Shown here one piece after another: positions 2,923-18,770 of a stretch of 19,557 bases of DNA (position 1 is the first letter of the stretch; the number at the start of each line of letters is the position of its first letter). A program made the translations under genes and the position numbers. The notes beneath the pieces are model-generated. The model worked only from the letters and a program-made list of their open reading frames with translations. It had not been told where the DNA came from and made no database searches. Origin of the DNA: an uncultured Oscillospiraceae bacterium (GTDB taxonomy: Bacteria > Bacillota > Clostridia > Oscillospirales > Oscillospiraceae). The DNA lies in the NCBI GenBank assembly GCA_934565775.1, contig CAKTIN010000036.1, positions 1 through 19,557 of the forward strand. Direction: 5' to 3'.

Positions 2923-3639
2923 CTACCACTCCAGCGCCGAGGCGGAGAGCTTCTTTTCGTTGTGAAGGTCCTTCCGGACCATGCCGTCCCGGAGGCGGAT
3001 CACATGGTCCGCCATGTGGGAAATGGCTTCGTTGTGAGTCACCATAATGACGGTATTGCCGTATTTCCGGTTCACATCCTCAATGAGCTTTAGGATTTCC
3101 TTGGAGGTGGTATAATCCAAAGCCCCCGTGGGCTCATCGCACAGGAGGATGTCCGGATTTTTTACAATGGCCCGGCCGATCGATACCCGCTGCTGCTGCC
3201 CGCCGGAGAGCTGGTTGGGCAGCTTATACCGGTGCTCGTAGAGCCCCAGCGTCTTGAGCAGATCATCAAGGTCTAGGGGCCGGTCCGACAGGTAGGCCCC
3301 CACTTCAATGTTCTCCTTGACATTCAGATTGGCGATGAGGTTGTAGAGCTGGAATACATAGCCCAGGTGCTTCCGCCGGTACTGGGTCAGGGCCTTTTCC
3401 CCCATATCCTCCAGCTTGTCCCCACCGATGCTGATGTAGCCGGAGTCCGCTCCGTCAATGCCGCCGATGATATTCAGCAGGGTCGATTTCCCGGAGCCCG
3501 ACGGGCCCAGCAGAACGCAGAACTCCCCCTTGGCCACGGAAAAGCTCAGGCCCCGGAGGACCTCCTGGCGGGTTTCCCCGGCGCCGAAGCCCTTATGCAA
3601 ATCCGACACTTCCAGAAATTTCCGTTCTTTCTCTGACAT
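2923..3639 (-). CDS. ABC transporter ATP-binding protein (MacB/LolD type)
   Basis: This 238-residue cytoplasmic ATPase partners the FtsX permease downstream. All motifs are present: Walker A GPSGSGKS (45-52), Q-loop Gln97, signature LSGGQQQR (144-151), Walker B ILLCDEP (164-170), D-loop GALD, and switch His202 in MVTHNE. The GALDxxTSxEIL stretch after Walker B is typical of the LolD/MacB/FtsE branch. I chose the ATG at 3639 because AGAGGG lies 6-7 bases before it. An in-frame ATG at 3669 has no ribosome site and would add ten basic residues overlapping the probable 5' UTR. A near-consensus promoter and a palindrome sit directly upstream, so the pair is likely controlled by a repressor. No regulator gene is adjacent. 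Confidence 0.95.
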
Positions 3640-3678
3640 AGTTACCCTCTTTCTATGGCTGCGCGCCATATCTCTTTG

Positions 3679-3694
3679 GTTAGCATTCGCTAAC
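3679..3694. promoter_or_regulatory. Palindromic operator upstream of the ABC genes
   Basis: The perfect palindrome GTTAGC-ATTC-GCTAAC lies 13-28 bases downstream of the ABC promoter -10, at or just after the expected transcription start. This position suits a repressor such as a TetR- or PadR-type dimer. The cognate regulator is not evident nearby; the TetR-family gene at 16036-16599 is 12 kb away and need not be related. Confidence 0.6.
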
Positions 3695-3706
3695 TACTGT
3701 ATAAGG

Positions 3707-3735
3707 ATTATAGCACCCTCCCCTTCCGGTTTCAA
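3707..3735 (-). promoter_or_regulatory. Sigma-A promoter of the ABC transporter operon
   Basis: On the minus strand TTGAAA (3735-3730), a 17-base spacer and TATAAT (3712-3707) give a near-consensus promoter about 70 bases before the ATPase start codon. Confidence 0.85.
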
Positions 3736-3928
3736 GCAGGAAATCAGAATTTCTCCATTTTTTACGGTTTGACAAAGGAATCCCCGGAGAAATGCGGCGC
3801 TTTTGTGCGCTTTGAACCGCCGGAAGCATTTTTCCAATCGATCCCCGGTAATTTCCGGTTTCTTTGAGAATTTCTCCCAGTTTTCACCGGTTATTTCCCG
3901 GGATTTCCTTAAAATGCACCCATTTCCA

Positions 3929-3957
3929 TTGCAATTCGGTTACAAATCGGTTATAGT
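3929..3957 (+). promoter_or_regulatory. Sigma-A promoter of a small transcript
   Basis: TTGCAA (3929-3934), exactly 17 bases, and TATAGT (3952-3957) face rightward towards the 24-codon ORF, with the expected start near 3964. The stretch 3740-3928 before it shows no gene; it is less GC-rich than the flanks and carries an imperfect direct repeat, CCGGTAATTTCCGG (3845-3858) and CCGGTTATTTCCCGG (3887-3901), of unknown meaning. Confidence 0.75.
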
Positions 3958-3964
3958 TTGTAAC
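3939..3964. promoter_or_regulatory. Inverted repeat over the -10 of the small transcript
   Basis: Perfect 8-bp arms GTTACAAA and TTTGTAAC are separated by 10 bases that contain most of the -10 hexamer. Centre-to-centre spacing is 18 bases, under two helical turns, which suits a dimeric regulator that would block RNA polymerase. The binding protein is unknown. Confidence 0.55.
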
Positions 3965-4001
3965 GTCCTCGCAAGACAATCTCAACAAGGAGGTCCAAAC
4001 C

Positions 4002-4076
4002 ATGTTCTGTTTCCCGAACCTGGATTGCAGCGCCCTTTGGGCCGCGATCTGCAAGCGCCTGGGCATTGGCTGCTAA
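4002..4076 (+). CDS. Small Cys-rich peptide, 24 residues, unknown function
   Basis: The ATG at 4002 is preceded by a perfect AAGGAGG (3987-3993) at 8-base spacing, and the frame ends in TAA at 4074-4076. The peptide begins MFCFPNLDC, has a hydrophobic middle SALWAAIC, a basic KR, and ends LGIGC. Cysteines fall at positions 3, 9, 17 and 24, the last being the C-terminal residue. It has its own promoter about 40 bases upstream and structured RNA then a terminator downstream. There is no signal peptide and no RiPP-maturation or transporter gene adjacent; the ABC exporter next door is transcribed divergently. Options are a metal- or redox-binding peptide, a small membrane-associated regulator, a type I toxin-like peptide or a signalling peptide. 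The ribosome site argues for real translation; the function is not known. Confidence 0.6.
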   Translation: MFCFPNLDCSALWAAICKRLGIGC

Positions 4077-4163
4077 TCAACCGGGCGGCTCCGCAAGGAG
4101 CTGCCCTTGAATTGCGCATTGCCCCCACCGGCATCGCCGGTAGGGGCTTGTTCGAAAAATCAT

Positions 4164-4191
4164 AACCACCGGCCGTGCCGGTGGTTTTCTT
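4164..4191 (+). terminator. Terminator of the small transcript
   Basis: The 10-bp stem AACCACCGGC/GCCGGTGGTT with a CGT loop runs into TTTTCTT on the plus strand. Confidence 0.85.
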
Positions 4192-4196
4192 CCTAC

Positions 4197-4232
4197 AAGA
4201 AAAGCTCCCCGATGAAGTTCATCGGGGAGCTT
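4197..4232 (-). terminator. Terminator of tRNA-Leu
   Basis: A perfect 15-bp inverted repeat (4202-4216 and 4218-4232), with a one-base centre, is followed on the minus strand by CTTTTCTT. Its first arm begins at the last base of the encoded CCA, so hairpin and tRNA 3' end touch. Confidence 0.9.
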
Positions 4233-4319
4233 GGTGCGCGAGGCGGGACTTGAACCCGCATGCCCGGAATGAGCACTAGAACCTGAATCTAGCGAGTCTA
4301 CCAATTCCACCACTCGCGC
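4232..4319 (-). tRNA. tRNA-Leu, anticodon CAG
   Basis: Read on the minus strand, the acceptor GCGCGAG pairs with CTCGCGC, followed by the discriminator A and an encoded CCA. The anticodon stem CTAGA/TCTAG encloses TTCAGGT, giving anticodon CAG. The long variable arm (type II tRNA) and the T-arm GCGGG-TTCAAGT-CCCGC fit leucine. It reads CUG codons, which are frequent in the GC-rich genes here. Confidence 0.95.
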
Positions 4320-6680: not shown

Positions 6681-7312
6681 TATGCCCCCTCCTTTTGCCC
6701 CAGGAGGTGGAATTGGGACTCGGAGCCCGCCAGCAGCCGCCGGATATTTTCATGGTGCCGGGCGATCAGCAGGGCGCTGGACGCCGTACACAGCCATACG
6801 GCGGCAGACTCCGCCCCCAGGCACAGCAGGCCCACCGGGCAGGCCAGAGCCGCCAGGATCACGGACAAGGACATATACTTCGTAGCAAACAACATCGTTC
6901 CCCAAAGGCCCAGGGCGATCAGCGCCACGCGCCAATCCACAAACCAGATGGCGGCGGCACCCACCAGGAAGCCCTTGCCCCCGTGAAAGCCATACCAGAC
7001 CGGGAAGGCGTGCCCCACCATAGCGCACAGGCCGATATAGGCGGCGCCCACCCCATAGGCGATCCCGGCGTGCCGGAACAGCGGGCAGAACACCAGGCAC
7101 AAAACCACCGACTTCAGCAGATCCAGTGCAAAGACGAACCAGGCATAGCGGTTTCCGAATACCCGCTTAAAGTTCGTAAATCCCGGATTTTTGCTGCCAA
7201 AAGTCCGAATATCCCGATGATAAATCAAATGAGACAGAACGATTGCCGGATTTACGCCTCCGAGCAGATAGCTGGCGGCCCCCACCAGAAAAAACAGCAG
7301 CTGCGGCTTCAT
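6680..7312 (-). CDS. plsY: PlsY-like glycerol-3-phosphate acyltransferase
   Basis: This 210-residue membrane enzyme would move an acyl group from acyl-phosphate to glycerol-3-phosphate, the first step of phospholipid synthesis. PlsY landmarks are GSKNPGFTN (39-47), GHAFPVWYGFHGGKG (100-114) and HHENIRRLLAGSE (186-198), embedded in about six to seven TM segments. Both glycine-rich motifs depart from the usual forms (usual SGNxGATN and GGKGVAT; here SKNPGFTN and GGKGFLV), so this is a divergent paralogue or a sub-family. The ATG overlaps the upstream stop by four bases (ATGA) and its stop overlaps the next start, so it is locked in the operon. FakAB encoded upstream would supply the acyl-phosphate; PlsX is not in the window. 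Confidence 0.87.
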   Translation of the reverse strand: MKPQLLFFLVGAASYLLGGVNPAIVLSHLIYHRDIRTFGSKNPGFTNFKRVFGNRYAWFVFALDLLKSVVLCLVFCPLFRHAGIAYGVGAAYIGLCAMVGHAFPVWYGFHGGKGFLVGAAAIWFVDWRVALIALGLWGTMLFATKYMSLSVILAALACPVGLLCLGAESAAVWLCTASSALLIARHHENIRRLLAGSESQFHLLGQKEGA

Positions 7313-10239
7313 ACGCTCCTTCTCCTTTTCTCCTCCAGCATGGCGAGCAGACTCCGCAGGCGAATGGTCGCCGCCCCCATATTGGAAATTTCGTCAATTT
7401 TCAGCTGGGTGTAGTCCCGCCCGGCCTCCTCCAGAATGGACCGCACCTCGTCGGTGGTAATGGCGTCTACCCCGCACCCGAAGGAGACCAGCTGCACCAG
7501 ATGCAGGTCCTCCTCTGCCGGGGCCCGGGCAATGTACTCCGCCGCGGCATACATCCGGCTGTGATAGGTCCACTGATTCCGGACCTTCGTGGGGAAGGGC
7601 TCCACCAGGCCGCTGAGGCAGTCCTCCGTGATCACCGCCGCCCCCAAATCGCAGATTCGTTGGTCCATGCCGTGATTCACCTCCGGGTCCACATGGTAGG
7701 GCCGCCCGCACAGGACGATCACCGGCTTACCCTCCTTCCGGGCGGCAGCGCGGATGGCCTCTCCCCGGGCCCGCACGGCGGCATGGAAGGCCTCCAGCGC
7801 CTCATAGGCCGCCTTTGACGCCTCATGCACCTGCTTTTGCGTAAGCGCCGGGAATTGGGGCAAGAGAATCTCCCGGATCCGCTTTTCAAACAGTTTCCGG
7901 TCCGCCAGGCTGACAAAGCCGCACAGGAACGGAACCTCCCGGAGCTCCGGCACATTGAGCTTCAGCACCTGGGGGTAATACGCCACCACCGGGCAGTTAA
8001 AATGGTCCACACCCAGGCCCTCGTCCACATTATAGCTCATATCCGGATAGAAGATGGCATCCGGCTTGCGCTCCAGCAGCCACTGGATATGCCCGTGCAT
8101 GAGCTTTGCGGGATAGCAAACCGTATCCGAGGGGATGGTATGCTGCCCGGCATGATACAGCGCCCGGTCGGAATGGGGCGAAACCAGCACATTGAAGCCC
8201 ATCCGGGCGAAAAAGGTATGCCAGAAAGGCAGCAGATCGTAAAAGTTCAGACCCATCGGCAGCCCGATGGTCTTTTTCCCGGGGTCCATTTCCCCGCTGC
8301 GGAAGGCGTCCAGCAGCTCCAGCTTATCGGCATAGAGATCGTACCGGGGCCCGGTCCGGGCCGTATGCAGGGGCTTGGAGCAGCGGTTCCCCGCCAGGAA
8401 GCGCCGCCCTCCAGAAAACTGGTTGACCGTCAGGGAGCAGTGATTCTGGCAGCCGCCGCAGGGCACCTGCCGGACCTTATGCACAAACTGCTCCAGGGCC
8501 TCCCGGTCCAAAAGGGTGCTGCCCGCCCCGGCCCGCTGGGCGGCATACAGCGCCGCGCCATAGGCTCCCATGAGACCGGCCAGTTTGGGGCGGATCACCT
8601 CCCGCCCGGTCTCCTGCTCAAAGGCCCGCAGCACGCAGTCGTTCAGGAAGGTCCCTCCCTGGACCACAATGTGCTCCCCCAGCTCCTCCGGCCGGGCGCA
8701 TCGAATGACCTTATACAGGGCGTTCTTGACTACGCTGATGGACAAGCCCGCGGCAATGTTCTCCACGGTGGCGCCGTCCTTCTGGGCCTGCTTCACGGCG
8801 CTGTTCATAAACACCGTGCAGCGGCTGCCCAGGTCCACCGGCGCCTGGGCAAAGCGCCCCAGGCGGGCAAATTCCTCGCTGGTGTACCCCAGGGTTCCGG
8901 CAAAGGTTTGCAGGAAGGAGCCGCAGCCGGAGGAGCAGGCCTCGTTCAGATACAGGCTGTCAATGAGCCCCCGGCGGATGCGGAAGCACTTGATGTCCTG
9001 CCCGCCGATGTCCAGAATGAAATCCACATCCGGGCGGAACTTTTTTGCCGCCGTATAATGGGCCACGGTCTCCACCAGCCCGTGATCCACGCAGAAGGCG
9101 TTTTTCACAAGCTCTTCGCCGTAGCCGGTGACTGCGCTGCCTCGAATCCGGAGGGCCGGATACGCCCGGTACAGCTCCAGCAGGTACGCCCGGATGAGCT
9201 TCACCGGGTCGCCCTGGTTGGGGCGGTAAAAGGGGTGGAACACGTTTCCCTCCCGGTCGCACAGCAGAGCCTTTACCGTGGTGGATCCTGCATCGATGCC
9301 CAAAAACATCTCGTCCTTGGGAGCCTCCAGCTCCCGGATTCCCTGGGAAGCCGCCTGATGCCGGGCGGCAAAGGCGTCATACTCCTCCCGGGAGGCAAAC
9401 AGCGGCCGGGTCTGGCGGTAATCTCCCTGCCCTGCCCCGGCCCTGACCTGGGCGATCAGCCGGGGCAGCCGCACCTCGCCGCCCACTCCGGCAAGGGCCG
9501 CGCCCAGAGCCACATAGTACAGCGATTGCGCCGGGCAGCGCCCCTGCACCCCCAGGACCTCGTCAAAGCTCTTCCGGAGCTCCGGCAGGAAGCTGAGGGG
9601 CCCGCCCAGATACAGGACGTTTCCCTCAATTCTGCGGCCCTGGGCCAGGCCCGCAATGGTCTGATCCACCACGGCCCGGAAAATTCCCGCCGCCACATCC
9701 TCCCGGCTGGCCCCCTGATTCAGCAGAGGCTGCACATCGGACTTGGCAAAAACCCCGCAGCGGGAAGCAATGGGCAGAACGGTCTTGTGCCGGGCAGCCA
9801 GGTCGTTCAGTGCGGCGGGTGTCGTCTCCATCAGGGTTGCCATCTGGTCGATAAAGGCCCCGGTCCCTCCGGCGCAGGTGCCGTTCATCCGCATCTCAAA
9901 GCCGCCGGTAAGAAAGAGAATCTTAGCGTCCTCGCCGCCCAGCTCGATCACCGCGTCCGTGTCCGGGTAAAACCTCCCCACCGCCAGGCGCTCGGCATAG
10001 ACCTCCTGCACAAAGGGCAGGCCCAGCCGCTCGGCGAAGCCCATGCCCCCCGAGCCGGAGACGGTAACCGCCAGGGGCTCATCGGGGTAGGCTGCGCTCA
10101 GCTTCTCCAGGATTCCCAGGCACACCTCATGGATTCGCGCCCCATGGCGGAGATAATCCGAAGCCAGAATGGCGCCGTCCTCCCCCAGCAGCACATATTT
10201 CATGGTCGTAGAGCCAATATCCAGTCCCAAGCGCTTCAT
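7309..10239 (-). CDS. Double-domain acyl-CoA dehydratase activase with DUF2229-like region
   Basis: This 976-residue protein carries two BadF/HgdC ATPase modules in tandem. Module 1 (1-260) has the phosphate loop LDIGSTTMK, GGEDAK, NGTCAGGTGAFI (Cys122) and SRCGVFAKSDV (Cys161). Module 2 (310-570) has GIDAGSTTVKA, IGGQDIK, NEACSSGCGSF (Cys435, Cys439) and GSRCTVFMNS (Cys474). HgdC-type activases place a [4Fe-4S] cluster between subunits using such cysteines and drive ATP-dependent electron injection into 2-hydroxyacyl-CoA dehydratases. Residues 594-620 hold a further cluster motif, CGGCxxHC plus RC. Residues about 655-960 match the DUF2229-type region (IGLPMGLNFYDLLPFWHTFF, GRPYHVDPEVNHG, SFGCGVDA). 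SD GGAGGAG precedes the ATG, which overlaps the upstream stop (ATGA). Family members are usually longer because the next gene's protein is fused at the C-terminus; here it is separate. Its true substrate is unknown. Confidence 0.87.
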   Translation of the reverse strand: MKRLGLDIGSTTMKYVLLGEDGAILASDYLRHGARIHEVCLGILEKLSAAYPDEPLAVTVSGSGGMGFAERLGLPFVQEVYAERLAVGRFYPDTDAVIELGGEDAKILFLTGGFEMRMNGTCAGGTGAFIDQMATLMETTPAALNDLAARHKTVLPIASRCGVFAKSDVQPLLNQGASREDVAAGIFRAVVDQTIAGLAQGRRIEGNVLYLGGPLSFLPELRKSFDEVLGVQGRCPAQSLYYVALGAALAGVGGEVRLPRLIAQVRAGAGQGDYRQTRPLFASREEYDAFAARHQAASQGIRELEAPKDEMFLGIDAGSTTVKALLCDREGNVFHPFYRPNQGDPVKLIRAYLLELYRAYPALRIRGSAVTGYGEELVKNAFCVDHGLVETVAHYTAAKKFRPDVDFILDIGGQDIKCFRIRRGLIDSLYLNEACSSGCGSFLQTFAGTLGYTSEEFARLGRFAQAPVDLGSRCTVFMNSAVKQAQKDGATVENIAAGLSISVVKNALYKVIRCARPEELGEHIVVQGGTFLNDCVLRAFEQETGREVIRPKLAGLMGAYGAALYAAQRAGAGSTLLDREALEQFVHKVRQVPCGGCQNHCSLTVNQFSGGRRFLAGNRCSKPLHTARTGPRYDLYADKLELLDAFRSGEMDPGKKTIGLPMGLNFYDLLPFWHTFFARMGFNVLVSPHSDRALYHAGQHTIPSDTVCYPAKLMHGHIQWLLERKPDAIFYPDMSYNVDEGLGVDHFNCPVVAYYPQVLKLNVPELREVPFLCGFVSLADRKLFEKRIREILLPQFPALTQKQVHEASKAAYEALEAFHAAVRARGEAIRAAARKEGKPVIVLCGRPYHVDPEVNHGMDQRICDLGAAVITEDCLSGLVEPFPTKVRNQWTYHSRMYAAAEYIARAPAEEDLHLVQLVSFGCGVDAITTDEVRSILEEAGRDYTQLKIDEISNMGAATIRLRSLLAMLEEKRRRSV

Positions 10240-11477
10240 ACCGCTGTCTCCTCCTTCGCCATGGCCAGCATCAGCTTGATCCGGTTCTCCTGATTGACCC
10301 GGGAGGCGCCGGCGTCATAATCCACCGGGAAAATATTGGCCCCCGGATACAGCTCCCGCAGCCGCCGGATGGTGCCCTTTCCCACAATGTGGTTGGGCAG
10401 GCAGCCGAAGGGCTGGGCGCAGATGATGTTGCGGTAGCCCTTTTCAATCAGCTCCGCCGCCTCCCCGGGCAGGAGCCAGCCCTCGCCCATCTTCACTCCG
10501 GGATCGATCACCTGTCCGGCCAACTCCTGCACCCGGTCAAAGGCCACCGGGGCTGCAAACTCCGGATAGGGCCGCAGGGCGTCGATCAGCCAGTCCTCCC
10601 AGCGCGCCGTGACCCGCCCCGCCCAGCGCCCGGCCAGGCGCTTCAGGCCGCTGCCGCCATAGTAGCGGTGGTCTGTCTCCATATTGGCAATGCAATACTG
10701 GAAAAAGCCCAGCACCCCGGGGACCATGTACTCGCAGCCCTGGGAGAGGAGGAATTTCTCCAGGCCGTTGTTTCCGAAGGAGGAATACTTCACATAAATT
10801 TCCCCTACGATCCCCACCTTGACCGCGTCGCGGTGGGTCCTGGGGATGGCGTGGAAATCCGCAGCCATGGCGGCCAGGTTCTTTTTCATGGCTCCCGCCG
10901 TCAGCCCCTGCTTTTTGCGGAACTGCCGGGTCAGCTCGGCGATCCATTTTTCCACCACCGCCCGGGTGTCCCCGGGGTGGTCCTCATAGGGCAGGCACTG
11001 GTTTTTCAGAAGCAGCAGCAGGTCCCCGTAGACAATGCTCCGCATGGCGGCGGCAGCCATCCCCGGGGTGATATGGAAGCCGGAATAGTGCTCCAGCCCG
11101 CCGAAGCTCAGGGAGATCACCGGCACATCCTCCAGGCCCATGCGCTCCAGGGCCTTGCGCAGCAGGCAGATATAGTTGGAGGCCCGGCAGCCGCCTCCTG
11201 TCTGAAACTGAATGAGCGCAGACCTGTGAGGATCGAAATCCCCGCAGGTCAGCGCGTAAATCTGCTGCCCCAGCATACAGATCGCCGGGTAGCAGACATC
11301 GTTATGTAAATACTTCAGCCCCGTGTCAATGACGTCCTTGCCCTCATAATGGACCACCGCCAGGCGGTAGCCATACATCCGAAATACCTCGGAGAGCAGT
11401 TCCATATGCGTGGGGAAAATATCCGGGGCGATGATGGTAGATTGCTCCTTCATCTCCTTGGTAAAATCGACCGGCAA
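10236..11477 (-). CDS. 2-hydroxyacyl-CoA dehydratase-like protein (detached C-terminal module of the activase)
   Basis: This 413-residue cysteine-rich protein has ten Cys, including DVCYPAIC (61-67), QTGGGCRASNYIC (92-104) and CAQPFGCLPNH (353-363), the type of signature seen in the HgdB-like C-terminal module of long activase fusions. Its first residues, FTKEMKEQ followed by TIIAPDI, resemble the linker that joins this module to the DUF2229 region in fused homologues, so the break lies at a domain border. The start is TTG at 11477: AAGGAGG lies 8 bases before it, while the first in-frame ATG (codon 9) lacks a good site. It overlaps the activase gene by four bases (ATGA) and follows fakA by 14 bases. 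It probably works in complex with the activase; whether it is a dehydratase, a reductase or something else is not known. Confidence 0.82.
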   Translation of the reverse strand: MPVDFTKEMKEQSTIIAPDIFPTHMELLSEVFRMYGYRLAVVHYEGKDVIDTGLKYLHNDVCYPAICMLGQQIYALTCGDFDPHRSALIQFQTGGGCRASNYICLLRKALERMGLEDVPVISLSFGGLEHYSGFHITPGMAAAAMRSIVYGDLLLLLKNQCLPYEDHPGDTRAVVEKWIAELTRQFRKKQGLTAGAMKKNLAAMAADFHAIPRTHRDAVKVGIVGEIYVKYSSFGNNGLEKFLLSQGCEYMVPGVLGFFQYCIANMETDHRYYGGSGLKRLAGRWAGRVTARWEDWLIDALRPYPEFAAPVAFDRVQELAGQVIDPGVKMGEGWLLPGEAAELIEKGYRNIICAQPFGCLPNHIVGKGTIRRLRELYPGANIFPVDYDAGASRVNQENRIKLMLAMAKEETAV

Positions 11478-17555: not shown

Positions 17556-18770
17556 ATGCCCATCCAAGTGTTCAGTGAGATCGGCCCTCTAAAGCGCGTG
17601 CTGCTCCATCGCCCCGGCGCAGAGCTGGAGCATCTGGTCCCGGAGGCCCTGGAGCGTCTGCTTTTTGACGATATTCCTTATTTGAAAGGCGCCCAATGGG
17701 AGCACGACCGGTTTGCCGCCGTTCTGAAGGAGAACGGGGTGGAGGTCGTGTATCTGTCCCGGCTGACAGCGGAAACTCTGGCCCAGAGCCCGGAGCTGCG
17801 GACCAACTTTGTCCTGGATTTTCTCCGGGAGAGCGGTCCCCTGGCCCTGCGGTATCACAACGAGCTCTTTACCTATCTCATGGGCATGGACGATGTCCAT
17901 GAGATGGTTCTGAAAACCATGGGCGGCGTGCGCTTCGACGAGCTGCCCCACGGCAACCAGGATGCGCTGACCTCCCTACTCCACCACCGGTCCGACTTTG
18001 CCCTGGAGCCGATCCCCAATTTGTACTTCACCCGGGACCCCTTCGCCTCCATCGGCCGGGGGGTGGCGCTGAACCGGATGTATTCCGTGACCCGCCGCCG
18101 GGAGACGCTGTACGGCCGGTATATTCTGGAGCATCATAAGGACTACGCCGGGCAGGTGCCTCTCTATTACACCCCCAATATGCCCTTCTCCATAGAAGGG
18201 GGCGATGTGCTGAACCTGTCGGAAAAGACCATTGCCGTCGGCATTTCCCAGCGTACCACGCCGGAGGCCATCGAGTGCCTGGCCAATGCCGTATTCACGG
18301 AGGCCTCCCCTCTGGAGACCATTCTGGCCGTGAGCATTCCCAGTATGCGGGCTTTCATGCACCTGGATACGGTGCTGACCCAGGTAGACCGGGATAAGTT
18401 TGTGGTCCATCCCGGGATTCTGCCTGCCGTGCAGGTCTATGAGCTCCGCCGGGGCGCCAAGGGGCAGCTGTCCGCCCGGGCGCTGGAGGGAGATCTGGCG
18501 CACATTCTTAGGTGTTATCTCCCGGCGGGCCAGGCGGAGCTGATTCCCTGCGGCGGGCAGGACGCCATTGCCTCCCAGCGGGAGCAGTGGAACGACGGCT
18601 CCAACACCCTGTGTATCCGCCCGGGGGTCGTGGTGGCCTATGACCGGAACGATGTGACCAACGAGATCCTGGACCGCTCCGGGATCACCGTGCTGCCCAT
18701 CCCCAGCGGCGAGCTCTCCCGGGGCCGGGGCGGCCCCCGGTGCATGAGTATGCCCCTGTGGCGCGAATAG
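17556..18770 (+). CDS. arcA: Arginine deiminase
   Basis: This 404-residue cytosolic enzyme hydrolyses L-arginine to citrulline and ammonia, the first step of the arginine deiminase pathway, which yields ATP and resists acid. Active-site residues are in place: FTRDPF (158-163, Asp161), IEGGDVL (213-219, Glu214), HLD (269-271, His269 and Asp271) and the nucleophile Cys396 in GRGGPRCMSMPL. The N-terminal SEIGPLKRVLLHRPGAEL and the length (about 405-410) are typical. AAAGGAG lies 8 bases before the ATG. It is the only long plus-strand gene before the amidase and has its own promoter and terminator. arcB, arcC and arcD are absent from its flanks, so the rest of the pathway must lie elsewhere, or arginine deimination serves another purpose such as nitrogen or pH control. 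Confidence 0.96.
   Translation: MPIQVFSEIGPLKRVLLHRPGAELEHLVPEALERLLFDDIPYLKGAQWEHDRFAAVLKENGVEVVYLSRLTAETLAQSPELRTNFVLDFLRESGPLALRYHNELFTYLMGMDDVHEMVLKTMGGVRFDELPHGNQDALTSLLHHRSDFALEPIPNLYFTRDPFASIGRGVALNRMYSVTRRRETLYGRYILEHHKDYAGQVPLYYTPNMPFSIEGGDVLNLSEKTIAVGISQRTTPEAIECLANAVFTEASPLETILAVSIPSMRAFMHLDTVLTQVDRDKFVVHPGILPAVQVYELRRGAKGQLSARALEGDLAHILRCYLPAGQAELIPCGGQDAIASQREQWNDGSNTLCIRPGVVVAYDRNDVTNEILDRSGITVLPIPSGELSRGRGGPRCMSMPLWRE

Follow-up and report, generated by a model that had tools for sequence, protein, structure and literature searches.

The 592-base gap at positions 3640–4231 of the window (the whole stretch of DNA analysed, 19,557 nucleotides long) holds the signals of a small plus-strand transcription unit, as is directly read from the sequence. 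On balance, we think it probable that this unit is a stand-alone, conserved small-protein gene whose promoter and 5′ leader also head genes of CAP-domain proteins. It would be repressed by a WalR-type regulator, and its predicted product is an amphipathic peptide with four cysteines that would act at the membrane in cell-wall homeostasis. Judged by sequence comparison, it is a real conserved small-protein gene, and it is without a match in the protein libraries searched. The evidence that promoter and leader tie it to the genes of CAP wall proteins is good, and the evidence for a tie to WalR is fair. The link to cell-wall genes is new relative to the initial annotation.

Structure of the locus

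The gap is flanked by the start of a minus-strand ABC ATPase gene (ATG at 3639) and by a minus-strand tRNA-Leu gene (4232–4319). The features of the small unit are as follows.

3922..3996, plus strand: promoter and 5′ leader unit common to the relatives (model R1, see below)
3928..3955, plus strand: WalR-type box, with half-sites ATTGCA at 3928, GTTACA at 3939 and GTTATA at 3950, spaced 11 bases
3929..3957, plus strand: sigma-70 type promoter, TTGCAA-17-TATAGT (9 of 12 matches in a consensus scan; aligns with the promoters of relatives)
3929–3934, plus strand: −35 element TTGCAA (direct reading)
3939–3946 and 3957–3964: perfect inverted repeat GTTACAAA / TTTGTAAC, spanning the −10 element
3952–3957, plus strand: −10 element TATAGT (direct reading), with a 17-base spacer from the −35 element
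3965..3977, plus strand: conserved 5′ leader element GTCCTCGCAAGAC, a possible small hairpin just after the predicted start (sequence conservation)
3987..3993, plus strand: Shine-Dalgarno sequence AAGGAGG, with the ATG 8 bases downstream
4002..4076, plus strand: ORF of 24 codons and a stop, MFCFPNLDCSALWAAICKRLGIGC, with the ATG at 4002
4083..4106, plus strand: hairpin 1, with a GCAA loop and a weak T tract; probable counterpart of the relatives' post-stop terminator
4121..4147, plus strand: hairpin 2, whose counterpart is absent from the relatives' 3′ sequences read
4164..4191, plus strand: probable intrinsic terminator at which the small transcript would end (hairpin 4164–4186 and a T-rich tail)

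The cysteines of the ORF stand at residues 3, 9, 17 and 24. The promoter, the Shine-Dalgarno sequence, the cysteine-containing 24-codon ORF, the hairpins and the terminator were thus all found where the initial annotation had placed them, and the unit is free-standing as it had claimed: no plus-strand gene lies 3′ of the ORF in the gap, and the convergent minus-strand tRNA-Leu gene comes next. The inverted repeat over the −10 element had been counted among these signals; it is perfect in the window, but it is not kept in the relatives, many of which carry direct repeats, GTTACA-N5-GTTACA, rather than the inverted repeat.

Elsewhere in the window, a plus-strand tRNA at 1–73 is cut by the window start (Rfam). 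The minus-strand ORFs of 976 and 413 amino acids at 7309–11477 are presumably parts of a large protein of the acyl-CoA dehydratase activase type, and the plus-strand ORF of 404 amino acids at 17556–18770 reads like an enzyme that we take to be arginine deiminase.

The peptide family in relatives

With the neighbouring TrkH gene as bait, relatives were reached at 5 loci, of 45–51% identity only. A search of the 24-residue peptide against 394 genomes of a single order, to which a genome titled Oscillospiraceae bacterium belongs, gave 79 genomes at E ≤ 1, mostly noise; in six of the 30 loci fetched from it, a Shine-Dalgarno sequence was followed by a short ORF with this pattern. When a profile was searched in 300 genomes of the family to which genome G178 belongs, the matches at E ≤ 0.1 lay in 54 genomes and were clear in 17 of them (E ≤ 0.0021); the peptide is present in a minority of the family genomes (about 17 of 300 clear). 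The class-wide search gave matches in only two of 391 genomes, G178 itself and G812, and the peptide family is therefore narrow. The place of the G812 match in that search was not readable as an ORF for a cysteine peptide.

Through the peptide search and the leader search described below, 26 homologous short ORFs (19 and 7, respectively) were found in relatives, and a further one runs into the end of its contig. The consensus from 16 peptides is MCxxNFDCxSLWQLLCxLFGxGC. The members are 20–27 residues long, with three to six cysteines among 27 peptides (four in that of the window), and the family has a C-x7-C core and a C-terminal cysteine. The stop codon comes at, or a few codons after, the last cysteine, and the spacing between the Shine-Dalgarno sequence and the ATG is 7–10 in 19 loci.

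Core statistics were computed on 23 of the 27 peptides (L085, L104, L106 and L128, which did not fit the fixed core pattern, were left out). The synonymous share of the differing codons was 0.29, as compared with 0.17 (sd 0.045) for column-shuffled codons, and 9 of 1000 shuffles were as high. Third codon positions differed most (0.467 vs. 0.376 and 0.279). The synonymous excess by itself is moderate evidence for coding, and the Shine-Dalgarno spacing and the stop position agree with it. As to the other alignments, A3 is without L077, L084, L085 and L042; A4–A6 are without L070, which has no leader; A6 keeps 12 of 19 loci, the seven indel-bearing ones being out; and A7 gives 36 of the 51 sources counted in the covariation test of the 5′ hairpin, 15 being left out.

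These results bear on the core of the initial annotation, which had argued that so many matching signals were unlikely by chance and could mark a new small protein whose expression is regulated. Other genomes do contain ORFs of this pattern, behind similar promoters, leaders and Shine-Dalgarno sequences, and the reading frame, the cysteine pattern, the promoter and the 5′ leader are kept there. Both the search of the peptide in related genomes and the examination of synonymous changes in its ORF, which had been proposed with it, came out on the side of a conserved frame.

No credible family was found with Pfam and NCBIfam (four peptides each), PADLOC and PHROGs (three each) or the PDB (profile), and a consensus-like peptide had no tblastn match in phage and plasmid records. 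A PDB profile match to the PARP12 winged helix, at E 0.21, was rejected. Nor was the family described in the top-ranked open-access literature on small proteins of microbiomes, small ORFs of Oscillospiraceae, WalRK and small proteins, and WalR and CAP/LysM proteins.

The four cysteines, the C-x7-C core and the C-terminal cysteine would also suit a precursor from which an exported or modified peptide is made, either a signal peptide or a cysteine-crosslinked RiPP, and L073 and L074 encode radical-SAM proteins (Pfam PF04055) on the opposite strand, at most 1 kb from the peptide gene. However, among 19 loci only these two have a radical-SAM protein so near, no family of maturases or transporters turns up repeatedly in the set, and the 20–27 residues include no separate leader segment. 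We regard a precursor of this kind as improbable.

Promoter and leader shared with CAP-domain protein genes

The conserved upstream region reads roughly ATTRCATTTGCAAAATAGTTACAAAACGGTTACAAT, a few bases, TGTCCTCGCGAGACAAATACTT, and then AAGGAGGT. A covariance model of the promoter and 5′ leader with the ORF excluded (R1, 12 rows) was searched in 400 family genomes at a threshold of E < 1e-5, and 41 sites were found in 36 of them. Downstream of all 41 sites lies either a cysteine-rich short ORF (21 sites, at one of which the contig ends within the ORF) or a gene for a CAP-domain protein (20 sites). The 20 CAP-domain proteins, of which 6 were identified by Pfam, 13 by motif and one (L127) by its likeness to L125, have a signal-like start, and 14 of them contain a LysM motif. 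Among the 21 peptide sites, ten had served as rows of the model, three had already come up in the peptide search and eight are new; a cysteine-rich short ORF comes next in each of the new ones, and the contig-cut one shows 2 cysteines in 13 residues. The window matches R1 with 62.5 bits (E 5.9e-12), which it does by construction because it is one of the 12 rows.

Of the 86 matches listed, 50 were read, namely all 41 below the threshold and nine weaker ones; behind the latter stand one CAP gene, four short ORFs of the peptide kind, two genes for G5/3D proteins and, in two cases, neither. In the control of 299 genomes of the phylum, only G178, a family member, gave a match below 1e-5, and 19 of the 299 gave one at E ≤ 0.05. 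The peptide is present without a recognisable leader in L070 (G209), and no CAP match was found in two of the peptide genomes. Since the ORF is conserved and its promoter and leader are common to the CAP genes, the locus appears to be the gene of a small protein, linked to genes of the cell wall.

Two further groups of genes behind the leader are recorded here. The G5/3D-type wall proteins behind weak R1 matches (L134:2189-3394, plus strand, by Pfam; L136:2117-3241, plus strand, by eye) are presumably YabE-like. In genome G528, the leader precedes three divergent short ORFs (L108, L131 and L135), two of which are nearly identical and have fewer cysteines.

In three of 30 loci (L074, L075 and L100), the order is peptide, terminator-like hairpin and LysM-CAP gene, and the last begins 71–83 bases past the peptide stop. 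Such an arrangement, with a hairpin and, less than 100 bases past the stop, a wall gene, would be expected if the ORF were a leader peptide of cysteine codons, on which ribosome stalling governed the terminator and hence the downstream gene. Several observations argue against attenuation of this kind. One is that, in 19 loci, the neighbours of the peptide gene include no recurrent family except in close pairs and as generic ABC ATPases; a first neighbour count missed the LysM-CAP genes just named, and in a fuller count, a group of seven loci, taken as such ATPases, was the sole addition among the 14 largest groups. Another is that the leucine, glycine, phenylalanine and tryptophan positions are as conserved as the cysteines. 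Furthermore, 20 CAP genes carry the leader without the peptide, and in the window there is no plus-strand gene downstream to be governed. Attenuation is accordingly very improbable.

A WalR-type box in the promoter

The published WalR consensus is TGTWAH-N5-TGTWAH (PMC9210968). The repeats GTTACA-N5-GTTACA are the reverse complement of TGTAAC-N5-TGTAAC and fit this consensus. Among 30 peptide promoters including that of the window, 13 carry the exact box, 6 one exact half-site and 11 neither. The window promoter has one exact half-site, with one mismatch to the box at 3939–3955 and two at 3928–3944; these are 2 matches, and 5 of 200 shuffles yield as many. Where the repeats exist, the box lies between the −35 and −10 elements, with its second repeat overlapping the −10 element.

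The box was also searched in 16 genomes, which had been selected for carrying the peptide or the leader, and 52 sites were found, as compared with 3 for a reversed control pattern. The genes behind them are those for 13 cysteine peptides (2 of which are followed by a CAP gene), 8 CAP proteins, 9 Hydrolase_2 proteins, 12 copies of a 96-residue protein, 2 SLH proteins, 2 BTAD proteins and 6 others; 30 of the 52 sites therefore precede genes for cysteine peptides, CAP proteins or wall hydrolases. The identities rest on Pfam for ten representatives and on inspection by eye for six rows (2 of the 96-residue protein and 4 of SLH/BTAD). Pfam finds 22 CAP and 39 Hydrolase_2 genes in total in the 16 genomes, in agreement with the 8 CAP and 9 Hydrolase_2 box places; 10 of the 22 CAP genes (2 of them after a peptide) and 9 of the 39 Hydrolase_2 genes stand behind the box.

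The conserved protein, about 96 residues long (MADQKFPLVYKGHPLRRKDNLIYYGSMADKYI...), is encoded at L169:2105-2395, plus strand (G178), and behind 11 other box sites. The single copy scanned had no Pfam family, and the protein is probably a further member of the regulon. The BTAD-type regulator genes behind the box are L145:1669-2877, plus strand (G528; by Pfam), and one in L180 (G460; by eye).

In G178, a kinase gene whose best family is HK_WalK adjoins a response regulator gene whose best family is YycF. The WalK model matched all 16 box genomes, always below the curated cut-off and near full-length in 11 of the 16. This result is not specific, because the model matches 11 of 14 control genomes as well, E. 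coli included.

From the boxes and this gene pair, the regulator of the peptide promoter is likely to be of the WalR type. The same small-protein gene might nevertheless have a box that serves another OmpR-type regulator, such as one of the PhoB type, or it may be mainly the promoter itself that is conserved. Half-sites of related OmpR-type regulators are similar, and PhoB-type regulators read similar boxes. The G178 regulator scores 290 bits for YycF (cut-off 340) and also 217 bits for PhoB, and repeats are missing from 11 of the 30 peptide promoters. On the other side, the targets include CAP/LysM, cell-wall hydrolase and SLH genes, which are of the kind that WalR controls (PMC7299342, PMC9210968), and we consider this alternative, in either form, rather unlikely.

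The likeness to the WalR (YycF) regulon of Firmicutes lies in the exact consensus in 13 of 30 peptide promoters, in the wall proteins and hydrolases among the targets (PMC9210968, PMC7299342, PMC10746227), and in the G178 pair closest to WalK and YycF. It differs in that no peptide of this size was found in the available portions of these three papers.

RNA structure and transcription termination

The 230-base strand of the window folds better than all of 200 shuffles (z −4.74), and the 3′ hairpins carry most of this. In the relatives, the 3′ hairpins vary in sequence and fit terminators under a strict rule in 17 of 29 loci (1 of the 30 loci, cut by N, is not counted), as compared with 16 of 580 control positions. 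Hairpin 1 of the window sits at the place of the relatives' terminator and has a poor T tract; the tail of the third hairpin is the better one. The 3′ hairpins are thus likely to end transcription.

At the 5′ side, the element GTC-N7-GAC is conserved in sequence, and the five pairs of its hairpin form in 76.7% of the cells, as compared with 27–55% when slid. In folds, a CCUC of the leader can possibly pair with the Shine-Dalgarno sequence. Compensatory stem changes, which the initial annotation had named as the sign of an RNA, were also looked for: in two alignments, the covariation of the small 5′ hairpin was not above that of shuffles, and a structured RNA is therefore not established. Over the ORF, no Rfam family was found at the gathering score, and matches at E ≤ 5 were sub-threshold only.

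The strong fold of the window, the conserved 5′ element and the excess of paired cells are what would be seen if the locus made a functional small RNA and its ORF were incidental. The variable, terminator-like 3′ hairpins, the Rfam and covariation results, the excess of synonymous change in the ORF and the occurrence of the leader at the head of CAP genes all speak against it. Such an RNA is highly improbable, and the dual-function RNA of the initial annotation fares no better, since the downstream hairpins differ among relatives and the 5′ hairpin shows no covariation above shuffles.

Possible action of the peptide

Within the core helix of 11 residues, the mean hydrophobic moment peaks at 100 degrees among the angles tried. 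The helix moment of the family is significant by column permutation (p 0.0006), with p ≤ 0.05 in 20 of 23 members, while the peptide of the window is by itself not significantly amphipathic (p 0.51). No signal sequence was visible by eye in the peptide.

A short, hydrophobic, family-wide amphipathic peptide could also be a type I toxin or another self-directed, membrane-disrupting peptide, and the three divergent ORFs behind the leader in G528 would be in keeping with this. The idea of a toxin or signal peptide, raised in the initial annotation, has gained little support: a consensus scan of the window over 3940–4200 showed no minus-strand promoter-like site, the PADLOC and PHROGs scans of three peptides and the tblastn search of phage and plasmid records gave nothing, and the regulation is in common with wall genes. 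We hold a toxin to be quite improbable.

For the conserved small-protein gene with a WalR-type box, the following action can be proposed. WalR, rather than another OmpR-type regulator, would bind the box and, given its position, would repress the peptide gene. Those WalR sites of S. aureus that lie between the −35 and −10 elements, or downstream of them, accompany repression (PMC10746227). Since the box lies between these elements, the peptide would be low with WalK active and would rise with WalK signalling down. More speculatively, the peptide might lie on the membrane through its short helix, its cysteines might bind metal or respond to the redox state, and it might modulate a membrane partner, either a WalK-type kinase or a wall-remodelling protein; it would thereby help tune cell-wall upkeep. 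The choice of a kinase or a wall protein as the target is the weaker part, suggested by analogy with MgrB, by the shared promoter and by the three loci in which the peptide precedes a LysM-CAP gene.

An extension of this proposal makes the family of four-cysteine peptides of 20–27 residues a built-in feedback of WalRK, in which a peptide at the membrane surface, co-regulated with LysM-CAP proteins, uses its cysteines to bind a metal ion or to sense the redox state and thereby resets a WalK-type kinase. Zinc is reported to hold down WalK of S. aureus (PMC6624279). We regard this extension as unlikely.

Three known systems may be compared. MgrB, a membrane peptide of 47 amino acids, belongs to the PhoP regulon and inhibits PhoQ (PMC2789325), and the present peptide would resemble it as a tiny feedback peptide of an envelope sensor kinase, if the above reasoning is right. 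It is, however, half as long, and the box position in its promoter predicts repression. SpoVM has 26 residues and a surface helix. The peptide resembles this B. subtilis protein (PMC4307972) in its similar length and in the surface helix predicted here, but differs from it in the four-cysteine pattern and the wall-gene promoter. The predicted logic, production at low WalK signalling, is that of IseA of B. subtilis, a WalR-repressed inhibitor of wall endopeptidases (PMC7299342), although IseA is secreted and the present peptide has no signal sequence by eye.

Significance

Genes of 20–27 codons fall under the usual cut-offs of gene finders, and their functions therefore stay unseen. The present family can be tested: it has a promoter of its own, and a regulator and a pathway, that of cell-wall homeostasis, can be named for it as likely. 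WalRK is central in this homeostasis, and its accessory parts vary between genera (PMC10746227). The cis-module offers a handle on wall-gene control in little-studied bacteria, including the 96-residue protein behind the box.
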